Source of the DNA: Bacteroidales bacterium
Lineage (GTDB): Bacteria; Bacteroidota; Bacteroidia; Bacteroidales; GCA-2748055
Direction: 5' to 3'
Length of the DNA: 64,000 bases
NCBI GenBank assembly: GCA_029210585.1
Contig: JARGFP010000017.1
Coordinates: 37,256-101,255, forward strand
Both the position numbers and the translations under genes were made by a program. Position 1 is the stretch's first letter. Each line of letters opens with the position of its first letter. The notes below the pieces were generated by a model, which did not search any database, had not been told where the DNA came from, and saw only the letters and a list, made by a program, of their open reading frames with translations. Of the stretch, positions 8,937 to 47,019 are shown in pieces.

Positions 8937-9376
8937 TGCCTGTTTTCTTTCATTCAGAGACTACCGACTTTTCCCTTGAAAAGCAACACTTGTTGCAGAA
9001 ATGGATTCAAACAATTCTGTCGGAACACAACAAACAAGTCGGTAACCTGAACATCATTTTTACTTCCAATGACTACCTCCTTGAAATTAACAGGAAATAT
9101 TTAAACCACAACTACTTCACAGACGTTATATCCTTTGATGACAGTGATGGAAACGTGATATCCGGTGATATTTTTGTAAGTATCGACCAGGTAAAAATCA
9201 ACAGCATGTTCCATAATGTTGGTTTTATTAACGAACTTTGCCGCGTAATGATCCATGGTGTGTTGCACCTGGTCGGGTTCAATGATGCTAATGCAGCACA
9301 GCAACAGGTCATGAGAGAACTTGAGGATCATGCACTCAATGTTTTAGAAGTGATGGATAATGGAAAAGATATATGA
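8936..9376 (+). CDS. ybeY: Endoribonuclease YbeY, rRNA maturation factor
   Basis: Metal-dependent single-strand endoribonuclease needed for 16S rRNA 3' end maturation and ribosome quality control. The metal site HGVLHLVGFND is present around residue 105; in E. coli the pattern is HGxLHLxGYDH. Here the last histidine position carries aspartate, as I recall for other Bacteroidota YbeY proteins. The start is GTG at 8936, overlapping the preceding stop; no ATG in the right place gives a complete N-terminus. The gene ends inside mnmG (17-base overlap), linking a ribosome factor with a tRNA modification enzyme. Confidence 0.92.
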   Translation: MPVFFHSETTDFSLEKQHLLQKWIQTILSEHNKQVGNLNIIFTSNDYLLEINRKYLNHNYFTDVISFDDSDGNVISGDIFVSIDQVKINSMFHNVGFINELCRVMIHGVLHLVGFNDANAAQQQVMRELEDHALNVLEVMDNGKDI

Positions 9377-11234
9377 TGTCATAGTAGTTGGAGGTGGTCA
9401 TGCCGGGTGTGAAGCAGCAGCTGCTGCAGCCAACCTGGGCAGCAGGACATTGCTGATCACCATGGATATGACAAAATTCGCTCAAATGTCCTGCAATCCT
9501 GCCATGGGCGGTATAGCCAAAGGCCAGATCGTGCGTGAAATCGATGCGTTGGGAGGATATTCAGGAATCGTTACCGACCGGTCGATGATTCAGTTCAGGC
9601 TCCTGAACAGGTCAAAAGGTCCGGCAATGTGGAGTCCTAGGGCCCAATGCGACAGGGCGGTCTTTACACTGGAATGGAGAAAGGTGCTGGAGTCTGTCCC
9701 CAACCTGGATTTCTGGCAGGACAAAGTGAACAGGCTGATCATTGAGGATGGTGCAGTGCGGGGCGTGGAAACAACCATGGGTATTCCTTTTCATGCCAAC
9801 GCCGTGATCCTTACCGCGGGTACTTTTATCAACGGACTCATGCACATTGGCGATGTGAAAATGAAAGGAGGAAGAATCGGAGAACCACCATCAGGAGGAA
9901 TCAGTGAACAACTGGCAGAACTTGGTTTCGAGGTGGGAAGAATGAAGACCGGTACACCTGCACGCATCGACGGGAGAAGTATCGATTTTTCCCTGATGGA
10001 CGAACAACCCGGTGACCAGGAAGGAAGGAAATTCAGCTTTCTCGATGATACACAGGATTATTCCGATCACCGCAGCTGTTATATCACCCATACCAACCCG
10101 GACGTTCATAAGGAACTGGAAAAAGGCTTTGCATCCAGTCCTCTTTTCAATGGCTCAATCGATGGCGTAGGACCACGATATTGTCCAAGTATCGAGGATA
10201 AAATTGTAACATTTTCCGAGAAGCAGCAACACCAGCTTTTCCTGGAGCCCGAGGGACGGCATACGGTTGAGTATTATATCAACGGCTTTTCGTCTTCACT
10301 TCCCTGGGATGTGCAGTTCGATGCGTTGAGAAAAGTGAGGGGATTGGAAAATGTAAAAGTGTTCCGTCCAGGGTACGCGATCGAATATGATTATTACCCG
10401 CCAACACAACTGAAGCATACCCTGGAGACAAAGAACCTGGAAAACCTCTATTTTGCAGGCCAGGTAAATGGAACCACCGGGTATGAAGAAGCTGCTGCGC
10501 AAGGGATGATGGCAGGAATCAATGCACACCTGCATCAAATCTTCAGAGACAAGTTTGTCCTGGGCAGGGACCAGGCCTATATCGGGGTTCTGATCGACGA
10601 CCTGGTTACAAAGGGCGTGGATGAACCCTATCGTATGTTCACGTCAAGAGCCGAATACAGGATCCTGTTGCGTCAGGACAATGCAGATGAACGGCTCACC
10701 CCCTTGAGTTACGAGATTGGGCTGGCCGGGAAGGAGAGGATGGAACTGCTTCAGAAAAAAAGAGCAGGGATACAGGCCCTCAAAAAAAGACTTGAATCCA
10801 CCAGTGTCGATCTTGCAGCCATCAATGCTTTCCTTGAAAAATCCGGGACGACACCGCTGAAGGAGAAAACAAAATTCATTAATGTGGCGAAGCGGCCACA
10901 AATTGACTTGCAGCAATTATTGTATACGTTCAATATGGAACCGGATGCGGAATTGTATTCTGACAACCTGCGAAAGGAGATCATGGAAGCTGTCGAGATA
11001 AGTATTAAATACGAAGGATATATTTCCCGTGAAAAACTGATGGCGGAAAAAATAAGCAGGCTGGAGAAGATTAAACTTGGATCCAACCTCGATTACAACC
11101 GTTTCAAAAGCATCTCTACAGAGGCCAGGCAAAAATTATCCAGGTTACGACCGGAGACGATAGGGCAGGCCTCACGCATCTCCGGCGTTTCCCCAAGCGA
11201 TATCAGCGTGCTCCTGGTATATATGGGACGTTAG
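9360..11234 (+). CDS. mnmG: tRNA uridine-5-carboxymethylaminomethyl modification enzyme MnmG (GidA)
   Basis: FAD- and NADH-dependent enzyme that works with MnmE to install the (carboxymethyl)aminomethyl group at C5 of wobble uridine 34. The 624 residues match the family. FAD-binding signature VVGGGHAGCEAAAAAANLG is at the N-terminus, with NPAMGGIAKGQIVREIDALGG, the GGRIGEPPSGGIS segment and GTTGYEEAAAQGMMAGINA further on; the C-terminal tRNA/MnmE-binding helical region is complete. The gene starts within ybeY. The first of two parS-like palindromes begins on the base after its TAG stop, recalling the classical gidA-origin neighbourhood. Confidence 0.97.
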   Translation: MEKIYDVIVVGGGHAGCEAAAAAANLGSRTLLITMDMTKFAQMSCNPAMGGIAKGQIVREIDALGGYSGIVTDRSMIQFRLLNRSKGPAMWSPRAQCDRAVFTLEWRKVLESVPNLDFWQDKVNRLIIEDGAVRGVETTMGIPFHANAVILTAGTFINGLMHIGDVKMKGGRIGEPPSGGISEQLAELGFEVGRMKTGTPARIDGRSIDFSLMDEQPGDQEGRKFSFLDDTQDYSDHRSCYITHTNPDVHKELEKGFASSPLFNGSIDGVGPRYCPSIEDKIVTFSEKQQHQLFLEPEGRHTVEYYINGFSSSLPWDVQFDALRKVRGLENVKVFRPGYAIEYDYYPPTQLKHTLETKNLENLYFAGQVNGTTGYEEAAAQGMMAGINAHLHQIFRDKFVLGRDQAYIGVLIDDLVTKGVDEPYRMFTSRAEYRILLRQDNADERLTPLSYEIGLAGKERMELLQKKRAGIQALKKRLESTSVDLAAINAFLEKSGTTPLKEKTKFINVAKRPQIDLQQLLYTFNMEPDAELYSDNLRKEIMEAVEISIKYEGYISREKLMAEKISRLEKIKLGSNLDYNRFKSISTEARQKLSRLRPETIGQASRISGVSPSDISVLLVYMGR

Positions 11235-11250
11235 TGTTCCACGTGGAACA
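11235..11250. promoter_or_regulatory. parS: parS-type ParB binding site 1
   Basis: The 16-bp perfect palindrome TGTTCCACGTGGAACA matches the near-universal chromosomal parS consensus (TGTTnCACGTGnAACA) bound by ParB/Spo0J. It starts immediately after the mnmG stop codon. ParB nucleates here, spreads and loads condensin to organise origin-proximal DNA. No parA or parB gene is in the window, so the ParB partner is inferred. Confidence 0.88.
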
Positions 11251-11259
11251 TTCATGAAA

Positions 11260-11275
11260 TGTTCCACGTGGAACA
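11260..11275. promoter_or_regulatory. parS: parS-type ParB binding site 2
   Basis: An exact second copy of the same 16-bp palindrome, starting 25 bp after the first and separated from it by nine bases (TTCATGAAA). It runs into a further short palindrome ACACGTGT at 11273-11280. Two exact copies in 41 bp would be very unlikely by chance. The site lies about 50 bp before the adenine deaminase start, so ParB binding could also affect that promoter. Confidence 0.88.
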
Positions 11276-16989: not shown

Positions 16990-19767
16990 ATGAGTGAACC
17001 AAAAAAACTGTTTTTACTGGACAGCTATGCCCTGATTTTCAGGTCATACTATGCTTTTCTTAAAAACCCGATGCGCAATAACAGCGGGATGAATACCTCC
17101 ACGGTATTCGGATTCACCCTTACACTTGATGAACTGCTGAGAAAAGAGGCTCCGACACATATCATGGCTGCGTTTGATGCCTCCGGTCCCACGTTCCGGC
17201 ATGAATTGTATGAGCCCTACAAGGCCAACAGGGATGCAACCCCGGAAGATATTAAAGAATCAATTCCCTGGGTAAAGGACCTGTTAACGGCATACCAGAT
17301 ACCGGTCATCGAAAAGCTGGGGTACGAGGCCGACGACATCATTGGAACCATTGCCAAAAAAGCAGAAAAAGAAGGCTTCGAGGTGTACATGGTTACACCT
17401 GACAAGGATTTTGCCCAGCTCGTCAGTGAAAGAATATATATGTATAAACCCGCCCGTTCCGGCAATGGTGCCGAAATCCTCGGGATCGACCAGGTAAAGG
17501 AAAAGTTCAGGGTAGAGGAACCGCACCAGGTCATCGATATCCTGGCCCTTTGGGGCGATGCTTCCGACAACATCCCGGGAGCCCCCGGAATTGGTGAAAA
17601 AACAGCCAAAAAACTGATTGAGAGCTTTGGCTCCATTGATGGGGTATATGAAAATATTAGCAGCCTGAAAGGAAAGCAACGCGAAAACCTTGAAAATGCA
17701 CAGGAACAGGTCCGGCTTTCAAGGAAACTGGCCACGATAATTGTCGATGCCTCCATCGAATACGACCTTGGGCTTGCAGAACGAAAACCCATTGAAAAAG
17801 CAAAGCTTTCAGCGATCTTTGATGCGCTCAACTTTAAAAACCTGCACAGCAGAATCCTCGGTGAAGAAGAAATTATAAGCAATTCACAAAAAGGACAACA
17901 GGAATCTTTATTTGGAGAAACAATTCAATCGGCTGGTGCACCAGCCACTTCATCAAAAAACATCCACACCCAGCCGCATGCATACCACCTTGTGACGGGT
18001 GAAAAGGACATCAACAGTATGCTTGACCGGTTGGAGGAACTGGATAAATTTTGTTTCGATTCAGAAACAACCGGCCTGGATACTATTGATTCTAAGATAG
18101 TTGGGCTCTCCTTTTGCTGGAAGGCACATGAAGCATATTATATCGATCTTTCTGCTTACGACCCTGTCCCGGAAAGCATCATAGCCCGTCTGAAGAAAGT
18201 TTTTGGCAACAGCGAGCGCCTGGTGATCGGTCAAAACCTCAAGTATGATCTGCACATGTTAAAAAATTATGGGATTGAGGTTACGGGAAGTTTATTTGAT
18301 ACGATGGTTGCACACTACCTGGTGGTGCCTGAAAGGAAGCATGGACTGGATGCAATGGCGGAAGAATATTTTGGCTATACCAAGGTGAAGACCGAGGAGA
18401 TGATCGGAAAAAAGGGAGCCCGGCAGCAGAATTTCAGGGACCTGGATCCTGAAAAGGTGAAGGATTATGCCTGTGAGGATGCAGATATCACCTGGCTGCT
18501 TTATGAAGTGCTTGAAAAGGAGCTGAAAGAAAAAGGAGTGGATACATTGGCATGGGATATCGAAATGCCCCTGGTGCGGGTGCTGATGGAAATGGAACAC
18601 GCGGGGGTGAGCCTCGACAGGAAGGGACTGGCGGATTTCGCAGAAGACCTGCGCAATGAACTGATCGGTATTGAAAAAAGGATTTTTGAACTGGCCGGAC
18701 AGGAATTCAATGTCGGGTCTCCCAGGCAACTCGGGGAGATACTCTTCGACAAGCTCAAAATCATTCCTGATGCAAAAAAGACAAAAACGAAACAATACAG
18801 CACCGGTGAAGATATACTGATCACCCTGGTTGATAAGCACGAGATTGTGCAGCAGGTACTCAATTACAGGTCAGAAAAGAAATTATTGAACACATACGTG
18901 GATGCATTGCCAAAGTTGGTGCATCCTGCAACAGGACGCATCCATACTTCGTTTAACCAGACGCTGGTGACCACGGGGAGACTTTCTTCCAATAACCCCA
19001 ACCTGCAGAATATTCCCATCAGGGAGGAACGGGGTCGTGAGATCCGCAAAGCCTTTACCAGTTCAGATGCACAGCACAGGTTTCTTTCAGCAGACTACAG
19101 CCAGATCGAACTCAGGCTGATGGCACACCTGAGTAAGGACGAGAACATGATCAGGGCATTTATTGAGAAGGAAGACATACACACTACCACGGCATCCAAG
19201 GTTTATAACGTGCCGATTGATGAAGTTACAAAAGACATGCGTTCAAGGGCCAAGACAGCCAACTTCGGGATCATATACGGGATATCGGCCTTCGGGCTTT
19301 CACAACGGATGCGCATTCCACGCTCAGAAGCCAAAGAACTGATTGACGGCTATTTCAACACCTATCCTTCGGTGCGGACGTTCATGGATAAATGCATTGA
19401 AAAGGCCAGGGAGAAAGGGTATGTGGAAACCATTTTCGGAAGAAGAAGGTACCTGCCGGATATACACTCCAGGAATTCCATGATCCGTGGCAATGCAGAA
19501 CGGAATGCGATCAATACCCCTATCCAGGGAACGGCCGCTGATATTATCAAAATCGCAATGGTATCTGTATTCCGGGCATTCCGGGAAAAAGGGCTTTCCA
19601 CGGAGATGATCATCCAGGTACATGATGAACTGAACTTTAACGTACCACTGAATGAACTTGAAACCGTTCAAAAGATCGTCAGAAATTCAATGGAGCAGGC
19701 CGTGGAACTGTCCGTTCCCCTGGAAATCGATATGAACCACGGCAGCAACTGGCTGGAGGCCCACTAA
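16990..19767 (+). CDS. polA: DNA polymerase I
   Basis: Repair and Okazaki-fragment polymerase, 925 residues with all three activities. The N-terminal 5' nuclease shows GYEADDIIGTIAKKA, VTPDKDFAQLV and GDASDNIPGAPGIGEKTA. The 3'-5' exonuclease keeps its acidic residues (FCFDSETTGLDT, NLKYDLHML, YACEDADITW), so proofreading should be active, unlike in Bacillus or Thermus Pol I. The polymerase palm and fingers show SADYSQIELRLMAHL, RAKTANFGIIYGIS and IIQVHDELNF. It starts five bases after queD and ends two bases before the convergent S41 protease gene. Confidence 0.98.
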   Translation: MSEPKKLFLLDSYALIFRSYYAFLKNPMRNNSGMNTSTVFGFTLTLDELLRKEAPTHIMAAFDASGPTFRHELYEPYKANRDATPEDIKESIPWVKDLLTAYQIPVIEKLGYEADDIIGTIAKKAEKEGFEVYMVTPDKDFAQLVSERIYMYKPARSGNGAEILGIDQVKEKFRVEEPHQVIDILALWGDASDNIPGAPGIGEKTAKKLIESFGSIDGVYENISSLKGKQRENLENAQEQVRLSRKLATIIVDASIEYDLGLAERKPIEKAKLSAIFDALNFKNLHSRILGEEEIISNSQKGQQESLFGETIQSAGAPATSSKNIHTQPHAYHLVTGEKDINSMLDRLEELDKFCFDSETTGLDTIDSKIVGLSFCWKAHEAYYIDLSAYDPVPESIIARLKKVFGNSERLVIGQNLKYDLHMLKNYGIEVTGSLFDTMVAHYLVVPERKHGLDAMAEEYFGYTKVKTEEMIGKKGARQQNFRDLDPEKVKDYACEDADITWLLYEVLEKELKEKGVDTLAWDIEMPLVRVLMEMEHAGVSLDRKGLADFAEDLRNELIGIEKRIFELAGQEFNVGSPRQLGEILFDKLKIIPDAKKTKTKQYSTGEDILITLVDKHEIVQQVLNYRSEKKLLNTYVDALPKLVHPATGRIHTSFNQTLVTTGRLSSNNPNLQNIPIREERGREIRKAFTSSDAQHRFLSADYSQIELRLMAHLSKDENMIRAFIEKEDIHTTTASKVYNVPIDEVTKDMRSRAKTANFGIIYGISAFGLSQRMRIPRSEAKELIDGYFNTYPSVRTFMDKCIEKAREKGYVETIFGRRRYLPDIHSRNSMIRGNAERNAINTPIQGTAADIIKIAMVSVFRAFREKGLSTEMIIQVHDELNFNVPLNELETVQKIVRNSMEQAVELSVPLEIDMNHGSNWLEAH

Positions 19768-23355: not shown

Positions 23356-23742
23356 ATGGCAACATACACTTTCAATAAACGTGAAAAACTAAAGAGCAGG
23401 AAATCGATCGAGTCCCTGTTCAGGTCGGGAAGTACTTTCTCCTCGCCTCCTTTTCGCCTGCTGTACCGTAAGGTGGAAGACCTTCCCGTACCAGTACAGA
23501 TGACGGTTGCCATTCCCAAAAGAAGCGTCCGCCGGGCGGTGGACCGGAACCTGCTCAAACGCAGAACCCGCGAAGCCTACCGTCTGCAAAAAAACAGTCT
23601 CCTTAAAAAAGTGACCGAAAAAAAAGCCTGCTACCAGATTCTGTTGCTTTACCATTCTGACGGTATCGCCGACTTCAGAACCATCCAAAGCGCCGTCCGG
23701 GTCCTGCTCACCCGGCTCGAACAGGCGGTAGACAAACAATAA
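23356..23742 (+). CDS. rnpA: Ribonuclease P protein component
   Basis: Basic protein subunit that helps the RNase P RNA bind and cleave precursor tRNA leaders. The 128 residues start with the family N-terminus (TFNKREKLKSRKSIESLFRSG) and carry the RNR signature in RRAVDRNLLKRRTREAYRLQ. The start at 23356 matches the family although it leaves no room for a ribosome site: a terminator-like hairpin ends on the base before it. rpmH and yidC, the common partners elsewhere, are not adjacent. Confidence 0.95.
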   Translation: MATYTFNKREKLKSRKSIESLFRSGSTFSSPPFRLLYRKVEDLPVPVQMTVAIPKRSVRRAVDRNLLKRRTREAYRLQKNSLLKKVTEKKACYQILLLYHSDGIADFRTIQSAVRVLLTRLEQAVDKQ

Positions 23743-29374: not shown

Positions 29375-31903
29375 ATGAGGAAGACCCGGTGGCGGAAGAA
29401 ATATGGTATCGTGGCAGCACCAGTCATTGTACTGCTCGTGGTATTCTGGATCTCGCTTCCCGCGGAACTGTTCGATGATCCTTTGTCAACAGTGGTATAC
29501 GACAGGGAAGGGGAGTTGCTGGGGGCGCGTATCGCTGCCGACGGGCAGTGGCGTTTTCCCGGGATCGATTCGGTTCCGGTAAAATACAGCACGGCCCTGG
29601 TGGCATTTGAGGACCGTTATTTCTACCTGCACCCGGGGGTGAATCCGGGGAGCCTCCTCAGGGCCCTGTTCCTGAACCTGGAGGCCGGAGAGATCCGGAG
29701 CGGGGGAAGCACCATCACCATGCAGGTAATGCGCATGTCACGCAAGGGCAAACCCCGGAACATCGGTCAGAAAATCATCGAAGTATGGCTGGCACTGCGG
29801 TACGAGTGTTCAGCAACCAAGGAAGAGATACTGAACACCTATGCCGACAATGCTCCTTTCGGGGGAAATGTAGTGGGACTGGAAGCTGCGGCATGGCGCT
29901 ATTTCGGGACGTCGCCCCACAACCTCACATGGTCGGAAGCAGCGCTGCTGGCAGTATTGCCCAATGCTCCTGCCTTGATTCACCCGGGCAGGAACAGGGA
30001 AGCGTTGCAACAAAAGCGGGACCGGTTGTTGGAGGTGCTGCGAAACCGGGGTGAGATCGATTCACTCACCTGCAGGATGGCAATAGCGGAACCTTTGCCC
30101 CGGGAACCACTCCCACTGCCCAACCTGGCACCCCACCTTGCCGATGGTGTGATGCTGGAGAAAGAACGGAACAGGCTGCACTCCACGCTCGACCACCGCT
30201 TGCAGGAACGGATTATTGAACTGACGGATATCAGGCAGGAACAATTGCGCGCCAATGAAGTACACAACATGGCTTGCCTGGTGATGGAAGTGGAGACAGG
30301 GGAGGTGCTTGCCTATGTGGGAAACAGCCGTGTCCGGCAGGGAGAGGAGCATGGGAACAGCGTGGATGTGATCCCCGCACCCCGGAGCTCGGGAAGCATT
30401 CTCAAACCGATCCTTTTTGCGGGAATGCTGGACAACGGGGACATCCTTCCCGCCACCCTGGTGCCCGATGTGCCGGTGCGCTACTACGGGTACGCCCCCA
30501 AGAATTATGACCGCCAGTATGAAGGGGCTGTCCCGGCGTTCGAGGCCCTGAGCCGGTCACTGAACATTCCTTCTGTAATCATGCTGAATCATTACGGTGT
30601 AGACCCGTTCCTGGGATTGCTCCGGAACCTGGGATTCACTACGTTCACCCATTCCCACCAGCACTACGGACTCACACTTATCCTGGGCGGGGGCGAAACC
30701 ACCCTCTGGGAACTGGCAGGGGTATACAGTAGCATGGCGCGGGTGTTGAATCATTATACAGCGGGCAACGGAAACTATTTTCCCTCGGATTACCACATGC
30801 CGGTGCTGGAACAACCATCCGGTGGTCCCCGAATGAATGACCGGGCCGGAACCGGAAAAGCGCATCGACCCGGAAAAGCGCATCGACCTGGAGAAGCTCA
30901 CGGACCAGCGGCGCAACCCGGAAGTGGACAGGCAGCAAGCCCCCGTCCCGTACCAAATGACTTTCCCGAAAGAAAGGGAGATGTGGGACCAGGAAATCTT
31001 CCCGGATCCGGCGAACTCCAGGAAGAAGGGCTCCTGTCCGCATCAAGCATCTGGCTGACATTTAAATCATTACTTGAGGTAAACCGTCCGGAAGAATTAT
31101 CATTATGGTATTTATTGTCATCGAGCAGAAATATTGCCTGGAAAACAGGAACCAGTTACGGGTTCCGGGATGCCTGGGCGGTAGGTGTCACGCCGGAGTA
31201 CCTGGTGGCCGTTTGGGCGGGGAATGCCGATGGGGAGGGGCGGCCCGGGCTTTCCGGGATCACAGCCGCTGCGCCGCTGATGTTTGATGTATTCAGCATC
31301 CTGCCACCGACCACGTGGTTCAGGGCACCGCTCGATGACCTGGAAGAAGCTGAAGTCTGCAGGCAATCAGGCTACCTGGCCGGGCCTTATTGCAATGAAA
31401 GGGATACGATCCAGGTTGTTCCAAGGGGAACAGAAACCCCCCGCTGTCCCTATCACCGGCTGATCCATACCGACCAGGAAGGCGCGTTCAGGGTCAACAG
31501 CGATTGCTACCCGGTGCGCAACATGAAAACAACCTCCTGGTTCGTGCTTCCTCCGCTGATGGAGTGGTACTACGAACAGAACCACCCGGCCTACAAAACC
31601 CTTCCCCCGGTGATGGAAGGCTGTGTCGACGGCTCAGTAGAGGAACTGGAGATTGTCTACCCTGAATGGGACAGTCACCTGGTGATTCCCAGGGAGCTGG
31701 ATGGCAGCAGGGGAAAAGTAGTGCTGGAGGTGGCCCACCGTCACCCGGCTACCAGGGTGTTCTGGCATGTGGACGAAGCTTATGTGGGAACCACGCAGTA
31801 TACCCATCAGTTGGCGGTGGATATGGATCCGGGAACACACACGCTCACCGTGGTGGATGCGGATGGAAGCAGGGACGAGGTAAGGTTTGAGGTGTTAAAA
31901 TGA
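29375..31903 (+). CDS. pbpC: Penicillin-binding protein 1C (bifunctional transglycosylase/transpeptidase)
   Basis: Inner-membrane anchored class A PBP of 842 residues. The glycosyltransferase 51 domain includes VAFEDRYFYLHPGVNPGSLLRA and RSGGSTITMQVMRM. The transpeptidase domain has SILKP (SxxK), SLN (SxN) and KTGTSYGFRDAW, so it should be active. The C-terminal biPBP domain ends with VVDADGSRDEVRFEVLK. Between SxN and KTG lies a Gly/Pro/Ala/His-rich insert with three copies of a six-residue unit (GKAHRP). I prefer the ATG at 29375 to the TTG at 29369. It follows the A2M gene, the usual pbpC partnership. Confidence 0.94.
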   Translation: MRKTRWRKKYGIVAAPVIVLLVVFWISLPAELFDDPLSTVVYDREGELLGARIAADGQWRFPGIDSVPVKYSTALVAFEDRYFYLHPGVNPGSLLRALFLNLEAGEIRSGGSTITMQVMRMSRKGKPRNIGQKIIEVWLALRYECSATKEEILNTYADNAPFGGNVVGLEAAAWRYFGTSPHNLTWSEAALLAVLPNAPALIHPGRNREALQQKRDRLLEVLRNRGEIDSLTCRMAIAEPLPREPLPLPNLAPHLADGVMLEKERNRLHSTLDHRLQERIIELTDIRQEQLRANEVHNMACLVMEVETGEVLAYVGNSRVRQGEEHGNSVDVIPAPRSSGSILKPILFAGMLDNGDILPATLVPDVPVRYYGYAPKNYDRQYEGAVPAFEALSRSLNIPSVIMLNHYGVDPFLGLLRNLGFTTFTHSHQHYGLTLILGGGETTLWELAGVYSSMARVLNHYTAGNGNYFPSDYHMPVLEQPSGGPRMNDRAGTGKAHRPGKAHRPGEAHGPAAQPGSGQAASPRPVPNDFPERKGDVGPGNLPGSGELQEEGLLSASSIWLTFKSLLEVNRPEELSLWYLLSSSRNIAWKTGTSYGFRDAWAVGVTPEYLVAVWAGNADGEGRPGLSGITAAAPLMFDVFSILPPTTWFRAPLDDLEEAEVCRQSGYLAGPYCNERDTIQVVPRGTETPRCPYHRLIHTDQEGAFRVNSDCYPVRNMKTTSWFVLPPLMEWYYEQNHPAYKTLPPVMEGCVDGSVEELEIVYPEWDSHLVIPRELDGSRGKVVLEVAHRHPATRVFWHVDEAYVGTTQYTHQLAVDMDPGTHTLTVVDADGSRDEVRFEVLK
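30852..30905 (+). repeat. Three 18-bp tandem repeats inside pbpC
   Basis: The unit CCGGAAAAGCGCATCGAC is repeated at 30852 and 30870 and in a diverged form at 30888, period 18 bp. In the pbpC frame it encodes GKAHRP-type units in a low-complexity linker between the SxN and KTG motifs. Period 18 keeps the frame, so copy-number slippage would not disrupt the protein. Confidence 0.8.
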
Positions 31904-32006: not shown

Positions 32007-33944
32007 CTAATTCAAAATAATCCGTTCCCCGATCACAGTGGAGATTTCGTTCTTGGCACCCTCGAGGTCTCGCAGGTGGGCCATCAGCTCCATCACCAGG
32101 TCCCCTTCCCTGCTTTTTTCTGCCTCACCGATCTGTTTCCTGAGGTCTTCAAGTGCCATTCCCACCACGCGGAGCTTGTACAGCAACAGGGCTTTGGGAA
32201 CTTCCACACCAAGGTTTTCCCCCGGCAATTCGATATAGGATTCCTTCCTTTTCCAGACATTGCTGAGCTCATACTTGGAGGTGACAATGTCCACCGCCAG
32301 GTCCTGCACCTCCTTGCTGTCGTGAAAGGTGAACACCCGTTCGGAGATTTCCCTGCCGGAATCGATCATGGCTTTTACATCTTCAAAGACCTGCTTGTAT
32401 ACCAGGTTGGTGAATTCCAGTTCATCATTTTGTATCTCACGGATGATATACTGCGCCACGGTGATGTCTGCATTTTCCTCCCCCGACAACTTCAGCTTCT
32501 GGTTGCCGAATTTCAACAGGAAATAGATGATCTCCCGTTCCTCGATCTCGGAGTAAACATTCTGTACAAAGGAAGGGACTGTCGGTTGTTCCGGTACCAC
32601 CAGCTGGTCGGGCCGGAACCGCTCCTTTTTCCAGGCCTGTTCGCGGCGCCTTTCGCGGATCTTATTGACTTCGTTGTACAATACGGCCTCTTCGGTATCC
32701 AGGAGCTTGCTGCACTCCTTCAGGAATACAGAACGCTTGATCCCGTCCGGGATCACGGCAACCGACCGCACAATGTCGGTGATCATATTGGCCCGCTTGA
32801 TGGGGTCGTTTTTCGTATCCGAGATCAGCACTTCGGTTTTGAAGGTGATGAAATCCTGCTCGTGGCTGTCAATGAATTCAATGAATTCTGAAGAATTCCT
32901 GCCCTGCGAAAAGGAGTCGGGATCTTCACCGTCCGGGAAAAGCACCACTTTCACGTTCAATCCCTCTTCCAGGATCATATCAATACCCCGGAAGGATGCC
33001 TTCAGTCCTGCTTCGTCCCCGTCGTACAGTACCGTGATGTTTTCTGTAAACCGCTTGATCAGGCGGATCTGTTCCGCCGTAAGCGCCGTTCCGGAAGAGG
33101 AAACCACGTTCCCGATCCCGGCCTGGTGCAGGGCGATGACATCGGTATATCCTTCCACCAGGAAACAGCGGTTGCTGCTGACAATGCTCTTTTTTGCCTG
33201 GAACAGGCCGTACAGTATGCGACTCTTATGGTAGATGTCCGATTCAGGTGAGTTGAGGTACTTGGCAATGTTCTTGTCCGATTTCAGCGTGCGGCCGCCA
33301 AAGCCCACCACGTTGCCCGAGATACCATGGATCGGGAAAATCACACGCCCGGCAAACCGGTCAAACACATAGTCCTCCTTCTCGATCGTCAGCCCGGTCT
33401 TTACCAGGAACTCCTTCTTGTACCCGGCTTTCAGTGCACTGTTGGTGAGCGCTTTCCGGTCCTCCGGACTGTACCCCAGCTGAAACTTCCTGGTGGTATC
33501 GTCGCGAAATCCCCGCTGCCGCAGGTAACTGAGCCCTACCGCTTTGCCTTCTGCGGTGTTCAGTTGTTCGGTGAAGAATTTCTGTGCATAGGAAGTGACA
33601 GCCAGCAGGCTTTCACGCTCATTGCGTTGCTGGATCTCCTCAGGCGACATTTCCGTCTCCTCGATCTCGATGTTGTACTTGCGCGCCAGGTACTGCAGGG
33701 CCTCAGGGTAGGATAGTTTTTCATGTTCCATGAGGAAACCCACCGCATTCCCGCCTTTGCCGGAACTGAAATCCTTAAAGATTCCCTTGGACGGAGAAAC
33801 CATGAACGACGGGGTCTTTTCGTTGGAGAAAGGACTGAGCCCCTTGTAATTGGTTCCCGACTTCTTCAGCGTTACATAATCGGAGATCACCTCCACGATG
33901 TCCACCACGTCGAATATTTTATTGACTGTCTCCTGGCTGATCAT
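32007..33944 (-). CDS. dnaG: DNA primase
   Basis: Synthesises RNA primers at the replication fork; 645 residues. The N-terminal zinc-ribbon domain is present by sequence (GLSPFSNEKTPSFMVSPSKG, FKDFSSGKGGNAVGFLMEH), but the usual CPFH and CxxC ligands are replaced by S, S, D and S, so it probably binds no zinc. As I recall, Flavobacteriia DnaG proteins look the same. The TOPRIM catalytic domain has FLVEGYTDVIALHQAG and VLYDGDEAGLKA. The C-terminal helicase-interaction domain is the diverged Bacteroidota form. It converges with pbpC and is divergent from the small membrane gene at 34137. Confidence 0.96.
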   Translation of the reverse strand: MISQETVNKIFDVVDIVEVISDYVTLKKSGTNYKGLSPFSNEKTPSFMVSPSKGIFKDFSSGKGGNAVGFLMEHEKLSYPEALQYLARKYNIEIEETEMSPEEIQQRNERESLLAVTSYAQKFFTEQLNTAEGKAVGLSYLRQRGFRDDTTRKFQLGYSPEDRKALTNSALKAGYKKEFLVKTGLTIEKEDYVFDRFAGRVIFPIHGISGNVVGFGGRTLKSDKNIAKYLNSPESDIYHKSRILYGLFQAKKSIVSSNRCFLVEGYTDVIALHQAGIGNVVSSSGTALTAEQIRLIKRFTENITVLYDGDEAGLKASFRGIDMILEEGLNVKVVLFPDGEDPDSFSQGRNSSEFIEFIDSHEQDFITFKTEVLISDTKNDPIKRANMITDIVRSVAVIPDGIKRSVFLKECSKLLDTEEAVLYNEVNKIRERRREQAWKKERFRPDQLVVPEQPTVPSFVQNVYSEIEEREIIYFLLKFGNQKLKLSGEENADITVAQYIIREIQNDELEFTNLVYKQVFEDVKAMIDSGREISERVFTFHDSKEVQDLAVDIVTSKYELSNVWKRKESYIELPGENLGVEVPKALLLYKLRVVGMALEDLRKQIGEAEKSREGDLVMELMAHLRDLEGAKNEISTVIGERIILN

Positions 33945-44370: not shown

Positions 44371-47019
44371 TTGTCTGACACTGCAAAACATATCGTCGAA
44401 ACGCCCCTGATGAAGCAATACAACACCATCAAGGCGAAACACCCGGATGCGATCCTGCTCTTTCGTGTAGGGGATTTCTATGAAACATTCGGCGAAGATG
44501 CCATCCGTACGGCCGACATCCTGGGGATCACCCTTACACGCCGTGCCAACGGCGCCGCATCCTTTGTCGAACTGGCCGGCTTCCCGCACCATGCGCTCGA
44601 CACATATCTCCCCCGGTTGGTCAGGGCCGGACAACGGGTGGCCATCTGCGAGCAACTGGAGGATCCCAAAATGACCAAGAAAATCGTCAAGCGCGGAATC
44701 ACCGAACTGGTGACCCCCGGGGTGACGACCAACGAAAATGTGCTGGAGCATAAAGAAAATAACTTCCTGGCCGGTCTGTATATCGACAGCAACATGGCAG
44801 GGATCTCCTTTTTGGATATTTCCACAGGTGAGTTCCTCACGGCGGAAGGGAATTTTGAATACATCGACAAGCTGATCAGCAGCTTTGCACCCAAGGAAAT
44901 CCTGATCCAGCGAAGTCAAAATGCCTTCTTTGGCGAAAAATTCGGGACCGGGTATTACACCTACCCCATGGAGGACTGGGTGTTTACCGAGGACAATGCA
45001 CAGGATAAATTGCTGAAGCACTTCAAGACAAAGAACCTGAAGGGATTCGGGGTGCACCGCCTGAGGCACGGGATAATCGCCAGCGGGGCGGTGTTGCAGT
45101 ACCTCGACCTTACCCAGCATACGCAGACCAGCCATATCACCAACCTTTCCCGGATCGAGGAGGACCACTATGTGTGGCTCGACCGGTTCACGATTCGCAA
45201 CCTGGAAATCTTCCAGGCGATGCACGACGGGGGGAAAACATTGCTGGAGGTGATGGACCGCACTGTTTCACCCATGGGATCCAGGTTGCTGAAACGCTAT
45301 CTGGCACTGCCGCTAAAGGATATCCTCCTGGTACGGGAGCGACATAAAATGGTGGATTTCTTCCTGGAGAACACGGAATTTTCAGAAGAGATCGGGGGAC
45401 ATATCCGCCAGATCGGCGACCTGGAACGGGTGATCTCCAAAGTGGCGGTTGGGAAGGTGACACCCCGGGAGATCGTCCATCTGAAAAATGCCCTGGCAGC
45501 CATCGATCCCATCAAGCAGGCATGCAAAAATTCCGGTCTCACCGCACTGAAACGAATTGCAGAACAGATCAACCCCTGCGCGTCGGTCAGGGAACGGATC
45601 GAAAAAGAGATTAATGAAGATCCGCCCAACCTGGTCAGCAAGGGGAACGTGATTGCAAAAGGAGTGTCGCCCGAACTCGATGAGCTGCGCCACATCATGC
45701 ATTCGGGCAAGGATTTCCTGAAGGAGATCCAGCACCGGGAGATCGAACGTACCGGCATTTCCAGTCTGAAAATCGCGTTTAACAATGTCTTCGGATACTA
45801 TATCGAGGTGCGGAATACCCACAAGGACAAGGTCCCGCCTGAGTGGATGCGCAAACAAACACTGGTAAATGCCGAAAGATACATCACGGAAGAGCTGAAG
45901 GAATACGAGGAGAAGATACTGGGGGCAGAAGAGAAAAGCCTCACGCTGGAGGCGGAAATCTTCAATAACCTGGTATTGAGCCTGGGAGAATACCTGCAGG
46001 CCATCCAGCTCAATGCTTCACTGATCGCACGCCTGGATGTGCTGCTGGCCTTCGCGACGATCGCGCGGGAAAACAACTATGTACAGCCGGAACTGAATGA
46101 CTCTACGGCCATCGATATCAAGGCGGGCCGCCATCCTGTGATTGAAAAGCAGCTACCGGTGGATGAAGAATATATCTCCAATGATGTCTACCTCGACAAT
46201 GATGCGCAGCAGGTGATCATCCTCACAGGTCCCAACATGTCGGGGAAATCTGCCCTGCTCCGGCAGGTGGCGCTGATCACCCTGATGGCGCAGGTGGGCA
46301 GCTTCGTGCCGGCAGCTTCGGCTAAGCTCGGCTGGATGGACAAGATCTTCACACGGGTAGGGGCCTCCGATAATATTTCGTTGGGGGAATCTACCTTTAT
46401 GGTTGAAATGCTGGAATCTGCCAGCATCCTGAACAACCTTTCCGACCGCAGCCTTGTCTTGTTGGATGAGATAGGCAGGGGAACAAGTACCTATGATGGC
46501 ATCTCCATCGCCTGGGCCATGGTGGAATATATCCATGAACATCCCAAGTGGAGGGCAAAGACATTGTTTGCCACGCACTATCATGAACTCAATGAGATGG
46601 AATCTTCCTTCGGAAGGGTGAAAAACTATAATGTTTCTATCAGGGAAATGGAAAACAGGGTGGTTTTCCTGCGCAAGCTGGTGCGTGGCGGCAGTGAACA
46701 CAGTTTCGGAATTCACGTTGCAGAGATGGCAGGTATGCCGAAAAGCGTGGTAAAGCGGGCCAACCAGATTTTAAAGGAACTGGAAGCCGGCAACCGGGAG
46801 GCAGCGGAGGGATCCGTAACCGGTGGACGCATCAGTAAACCCGTTGGAGAAATCGGGGGCAACCGGGAAGGCATGCAGATGAGCTTTTTTAATTTGGATG
46901 ACCCGGTGCTGAAACAGATACGCGATGAGATCGCCAATACGGATATTGATAACCTGACCCCGGTGGAGGCACTGAACAAACTGAATGATATCAAGCGCTT
47001 TATAGGGCTGAAGAAATAA
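44371..47019 (+). CDS. mutS: DNA mismatch repair protein MutS
   Basis: Recognises mismatches and small loops and recruits MutL. 882 residues with the mismatch-binding [11 protein letters not shown] (FxE) near residue 30, clamp and connector domains, and the ATPase with [15 protein letters not shown] (Walker A), [16 protein letters not shown] (Walker B) and [11 protein letters not shown]. The start is uncertain: the frame opens with TTG at 44371 giving [17 protein letters not shown], which matches the family N-terminus; the first ATG in frame is at 44410. I keep the TTG start. Confidence 0.96.

Follow-up and report, generated by a model that had tools for sequence, protein, structure and literature searches.

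A probable chromosomal centromere abutting mnmG in a Bacteroidales bacterium

Two palindromes behind mnmG

The window analysed here, a stretch of 64,000 nucleotides, is part of contig C25 of a draft genome of a Bacteroidales bacterium (4.61 Mb in 116 contigs, 99% complete). Directly behind mnmG (gidA) it contains two 16-mers, TGTTCCACGTGGAACA, which are exact, identical to one another and fully palindromic, and which are separated by the spacer TTCATGAAA (Table 1). The initial annotation, made from the letters of the window, had described two identical 16-bp palindromes 25 bp apart immediately behind the mnmG stop, and these coordinates were confirmed exactly, as was the presence of rnpA in the window. 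The genes polA, dnaG, mutS and rnpA all lie less than 36 kb from the pair.

Table 1 Features of the window around the palindrome pair
Feature	Position	Strand	Remark
mnmG (gidA)	9360..11234	+	Pfam PF01134, 534 bits; stop codon TAG ends at 11234; parS anchored to mnmG ends in Bacteroidia
parS site 1, TGTTCCACGTGGAACA	11235..11250	.	First base after mnmG stop codon
9-bp spacer TTCATGAAA between parS sites	11251..11259	.	Sequence not conserved in relatives
parS site 2, identical to site 1	11260..11275	.	Starts 25 bp after the start of site 1
polA	16990..19767
rnpA	23356..23742		PF00825
dnaG	32007..33944
mutS	44371..47019

The chromosomal parS consensus reportedly goes back to Livny and colleagues in 2007. 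With up to two mismatches allowed, this consensus, TGTTNCACGTGNAACA, has three matches in the window against 0.25 expected by chance: the two palindromes, which fit it exactly, as had been proposed, and a third match at 31417, which has two mismatches and a broken CACGTG core. The genome-wide search suggested in the initial annotation returned no further perfect copy of TGTTCCACGTGGAACA in the 4.61-Mb draft, every other place that was found having two mismatches and none lying within one mismatch of the consensus. The sites are few and clustered, two in the whole assembly, rather than scattered. A chance origin of the parS match is excluded by the match counts.

ParA and ParB are encoded on another contig

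Only one ParB of the genome scores above the family cut-off, and it is encoded on contig C26 (TIGR00180, 3.3e-56). Directly upstream of it lies parA, identified by reading its sequence, in the order parA–parB, and the frames that follow parB resemble, on inspection, the parAB-linked genes usual in Bacteroidota. The protein aligns over its full length with solved structures of chromosomal ParB/Spo0J (best E 4e-50), contains the CTP-pocket motif GERRLRA, and has in the alignment an arginine in the DNA-reading helix and, further on, a glycine, which match R173 and G201 in the Caulobacter protein. These two residues are absolutely conserved in parS-binding ParB and are replaced by Q and R in Noc (PMC7383237). 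The genome thus encodes a cognate ParA and a chromosomal-type ParB with the parS-specific residues rather than those of Noc, and lack of a ParB, which had been named as evidence against a centromere, is not what is found. The earlier statement that parAB and dnaA lie outside the window also holds, parA–parB being located on C26 and dnaA on C32. A transposase-like fragment, recognized by reading, lies just upstream of parA at the end of C26 (L041:90-647).

A full Smc was not found in the genome in a search with one Smc model, TIGR02168, whose best match reached 30.6 bits where the cut-off is 567 and whose matches were all short and coiled-coil-like. This agrees with the parts of PMC10197239 that deal with Bacteroides caecimuris and Muribaculum intestinale, two Bacteroidales in which no known condensin was found.

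The site keeps its position at mnmG in relatives

The exact core GTTYCACGTGRAAC is present in 127 of 149 Bacteroidales genomes, usually in one to three copies each; a reversed control pattern occurs in 4 of the 149, with one copy in each. At 121 of 153 Bacteroidales loci the core lies no more than 500 bp behind the mnmG stop (69 of 85 sampled loci, counting those with both flanks readable, and 52 of 68 named loci), most often at −2 to +10 bp relative to the stop codon, parS starting within the mnmG TAG itself in several relatives. At four more sampled loci the exact core occurs only just upstream of the gene, and 27 sampled loci have a core upstream, either additionally or exclusively. Many loci scored as negative have a parS variant with one or two mismatches at the same place, and among the loci whose surroundings were read parS is found at mnmG with very few exceptions, regardless of the other neighbours. 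In a sample of the class, 21 genomes had listed sites that could be placed, and in all 21 at least one site lies less than 2 kb from mnmG, as do 55 of 69 sites among the matches listed. The site is kept at mnmG across the order and the class and, judged by the sequences compared, the position of parS is frozen against mnmG across the whole class. The pair itself, whose conservation the initial annotation had suggested checking, is not conserved in this way, most relatives having one site, and its spacing is not fixed.

Across the 149 genomes there is a modest association between ParB and parS, parS being present in 122 of 139 genomes with ParB and in 5 of 10 without (Fisher p 0.007, which is indicative only, the genomes being related); with several ParB-negative bins incomplete, the trend is not decisive. 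Two genomes, G033 and G144, have parS with no ParB detected in bins that are 91–95% complete; in three others, G057, G077 and G091, there is no above-cut-off ParB and mnmG is without parS.

Pair spacing and alternative readings

Pairs of parS no more than 60 bp apart occur at 30 of 146 mnmG loci. Among relatives the shortest step is 16 bp and the longest run to hundreds. On the MnmG tree, over which the pairs are scattered, the pair state has changed at least 14–20 times. The initial annotation had proposed that the fixed 25-bp step serves cooperative ParB loading. A specialized module of this kind, in which the step is important, would refine the parS reading and is no alternative to it, and it draws some support from the three nearest relatives by MnmG (L107, L108 and L111), all of which have pairs with a step of 25–26 bp. 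Because it is common to these three, the step is, on the sequences compared, a local trait of the nearest relatives. Other near relatives are single-site, including two genomes of the same family with one parS overlapping the mnmG TAG; the prevalence of single sites, the range of steps (16 to more than 200 bp) and the repeated changes on the tree all speak against the module, as does the sufficiency of one origin-proximal parS in Pseudomonas aeruginosa (PMC4368675). We consider such a module improbable, with cooperative loading by the pair possible but not favoured, and either copy alone is probably sufficient.

Two rival readings of the palindromes were also weighed. The pair may form a stem-loop serving to end the mnmG transcript or to protect it, as a terminator or a 3′ stem-loop, with the match to parS secondary: it is placed exactly at the gene end and folds into a 19-bp stem with a 5-nt loop, which has a terminator-like score and a weak T-rich tail, GTGTCGTTTC. 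Two palindromes of any kind would pair in this manner, however, and most relatives have only one site to offer, with a site upstream of the gene at the 27 sampled loci mentioned above. The extended spacer hairpin is present in the window, weakly so in L107, and absent from most others; although the stem of an intrinsic terminator is there, the T tract and the spacer are not conserved, whereas the 14-bp ParB core is, and in contrast to terminators the element has no copies elsewhere in the genome. We regard this reading as very unlikely. Slightly less likely still is that another palindrome-binding regulator uses the sites as its operators, or that they are Noc-type sites, a thought that arises from the further regulators that bind CACGTG palindromes in general and from Noc being a paralogue of ParB. 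The NBS (Noc binding site) has the sequence TATTTCCCGGGAAATA. The palindromes in the window have the sequence of parS and not of NBS, their position is bound to mnmG and not to a regulon, and the combination of an TATTTCCCGGGAAATA-type site with a Noc paralogue having Q173/R201 is absent, the one ParB found in the genome having at the two specificity positions R and G instead of the Q and R of Noc (PMC7383237). A Noc site is ruled out by the parS sequence together with the ParB residues.

parS and the replication origin

GC skew was sampled piecewise along contigs. In the relative G133, a one-contig assembly, the only two copies of the exact core lie behind mnmG at 1.673 Mb, and dnaA lies 1.2 Mb away at 0.467 Mb; in G149 (CP070654, also one contig) the sole copy is likewise behind mnmG, at 2.043 Mb, with dnaA 1.57 Mb away at 0.470 Mb. 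The cumulative GC skew of G133 is lowest at 1.6475 Mb, a distance of 25 kb from parS, and the third-position skew flips sign at this minimum in genes of both strands, which shows that the switch is not merely a matter of gene orientation. The ParB gene of G133 lies at 1.728 Mb. Since the skew minimum is with parS, dnaA is no origin marker in this genome. On a 1.09-Mb contig of another relative, G015, the gene-strand-corrected skew switches between samples at 330 and 370 kb, about 50–90 kb from parS at 423 kb. A readable global GC skew was not found in G149. On C25, a draft contig, the skew changes direction near 32.5 kb, a point that lies 4.7 kb outside the window and 16 kb upstream of the pair; the skew is clearly negative to the left of this switch and only weakly positive to its right. 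Comparison of gene order found no gene shared between the skew switch of C25 and those of G133 and G015, and no cluster stood out in a DnaA-box scan of C25, C26 and C32.

The proposal that this region is near the replication origin is supported by the skew switches close to parS in G133 and G015 and, more weakly, by that of the draft contig; in the Bacteroidales relatives it is parS rather than dnaA that marks the origin region. The account of origins given in parts of PMC10197239 is of the same kind: parS and GC skew were used there to place the origins of B. caecimuris and M. intestinale, two members of the same order, the origin of B. caecimuris being placed at a parS cluster by skew with support from coverage, and dnaA is stated not always to be an origin marker. 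The description of parS in that part of the study of these two species (OMM12 Hi-C) names neither mnmG nor an abutting position, unlike the arrangement described here. In flavobacteria, oriC has been predicted at mnmG in one species (PMC12843772) and likewise in the text of another report (PMC11278836), one figure legend of which labels mnmG as ter.

A probable centromere anchored to mnmG

The consensus sequence, its uniqueness in the genome, the cognate genes, the conserved position and, in relatives, a skew switch close to parS were all observed directly, and we consider it very probable (roughly 93%) that the two palindromes are this bacterium's chromosomal centromere (parS), situated near the origin and serving ParB loading and segregation. 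The function as a loading and segregation centre put forward in the initial annotation is consistent with the unique sites, the parS-type residues of ParB and the position kept at mnmG, and ParB would be predicted to bind here. In ParABS systems, as reviewed in PMC7333895, parS is where ParB nucleates and from where it spreads in the form of CTP-dependent clamps, with ParA pulling it; loading of Smc is a further function of ParB in many bacteria. Here, by analogy with characterized systems, ParB would be produced by the parAB operon at another place in the chromosome, and each palindrome would be bound by one ParB dimer; ParB would be loaded at parS as a CTP-dependent clamp and then slide into adjacent DNA, and ParA would move the ParB–DNA mass such that the newly replicated origin region segregates first. 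In this scheme parS would lie near the origin of replication, and in this group that origin would not be beside dnaA.

The element resembles parS of the ParABS systems of B. subtilis, Caulobacter and Pseudomonas in its 16-bp consensus palindrome, its few copies, its probable place near the origin and the presence of both ParA and ParB in the genome. It differs from them in being linked to neither parAB nor dnaA, in being anchored to mnmG ends across Bacteroidia, and in that no Smc was detected in its own genome. The ancestral origin cluster consists of dnaA, dnaN, rpmH, rnpA, yidC, yidD, gidA, gidB, parA and parB (PMC2099444); of this cluster, mnmG (gidA) is still together with parS, probably near the origin, and rnpA lies 12 kb off, whereas dnaA and parAB are gone from it. 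The kind of element is known, and what sets this case apart is the tight and broad anchoring to mnmG away from dnaA and parAB. A tentative extension, which we hold to be possible but rather doubtful, is that throughout the class Bacteroidia the centromere has remained at the ends of mnmG, with dnaA, parAB and most other neighbours moving away, and that it works without canonical Smc, the ParB clamps either handing over to an unknown condensin or acting via ParA alone.

A parS core at an end of mnmG provides a simple marker of the origin region for Bacteroidota genomes and metagenome bins, in which the customary start at dnaA can miss the origin by more than 1 megabase. It also names exact sites at which chromosome segregation can be studied in a group without recognizable Smc.

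Variant sites and arrays

In seven loci of Flavobacteriales (L166–L169 and L171–L173), asymmetric parS variants flank mnmG on both sides and are oppositely oriented, the gene being preceded by GTTTCATGTGAAAC and followed by the reverse complement of this sequence, GTTTCACATGAAAC. One mnmG locus, L268 of genome G115, has a variant pair, TGCTCCACGTGGAGCA and TGCTTCACGTGGAGCG, at distances of 19 and 61 bp behind the mnmG stop, in which both half-sites are changed symmetrically; the genome has a strong ParB match, and the symmetric change suggests an altered ParB specificity. The genome G182 of the class sample has 12 parS cores (G182:C24:13203-13809 and C40:53116-54173), seven of which form an array with a regular period of 98–99 bp, and on another contig three lie beside mnmG.
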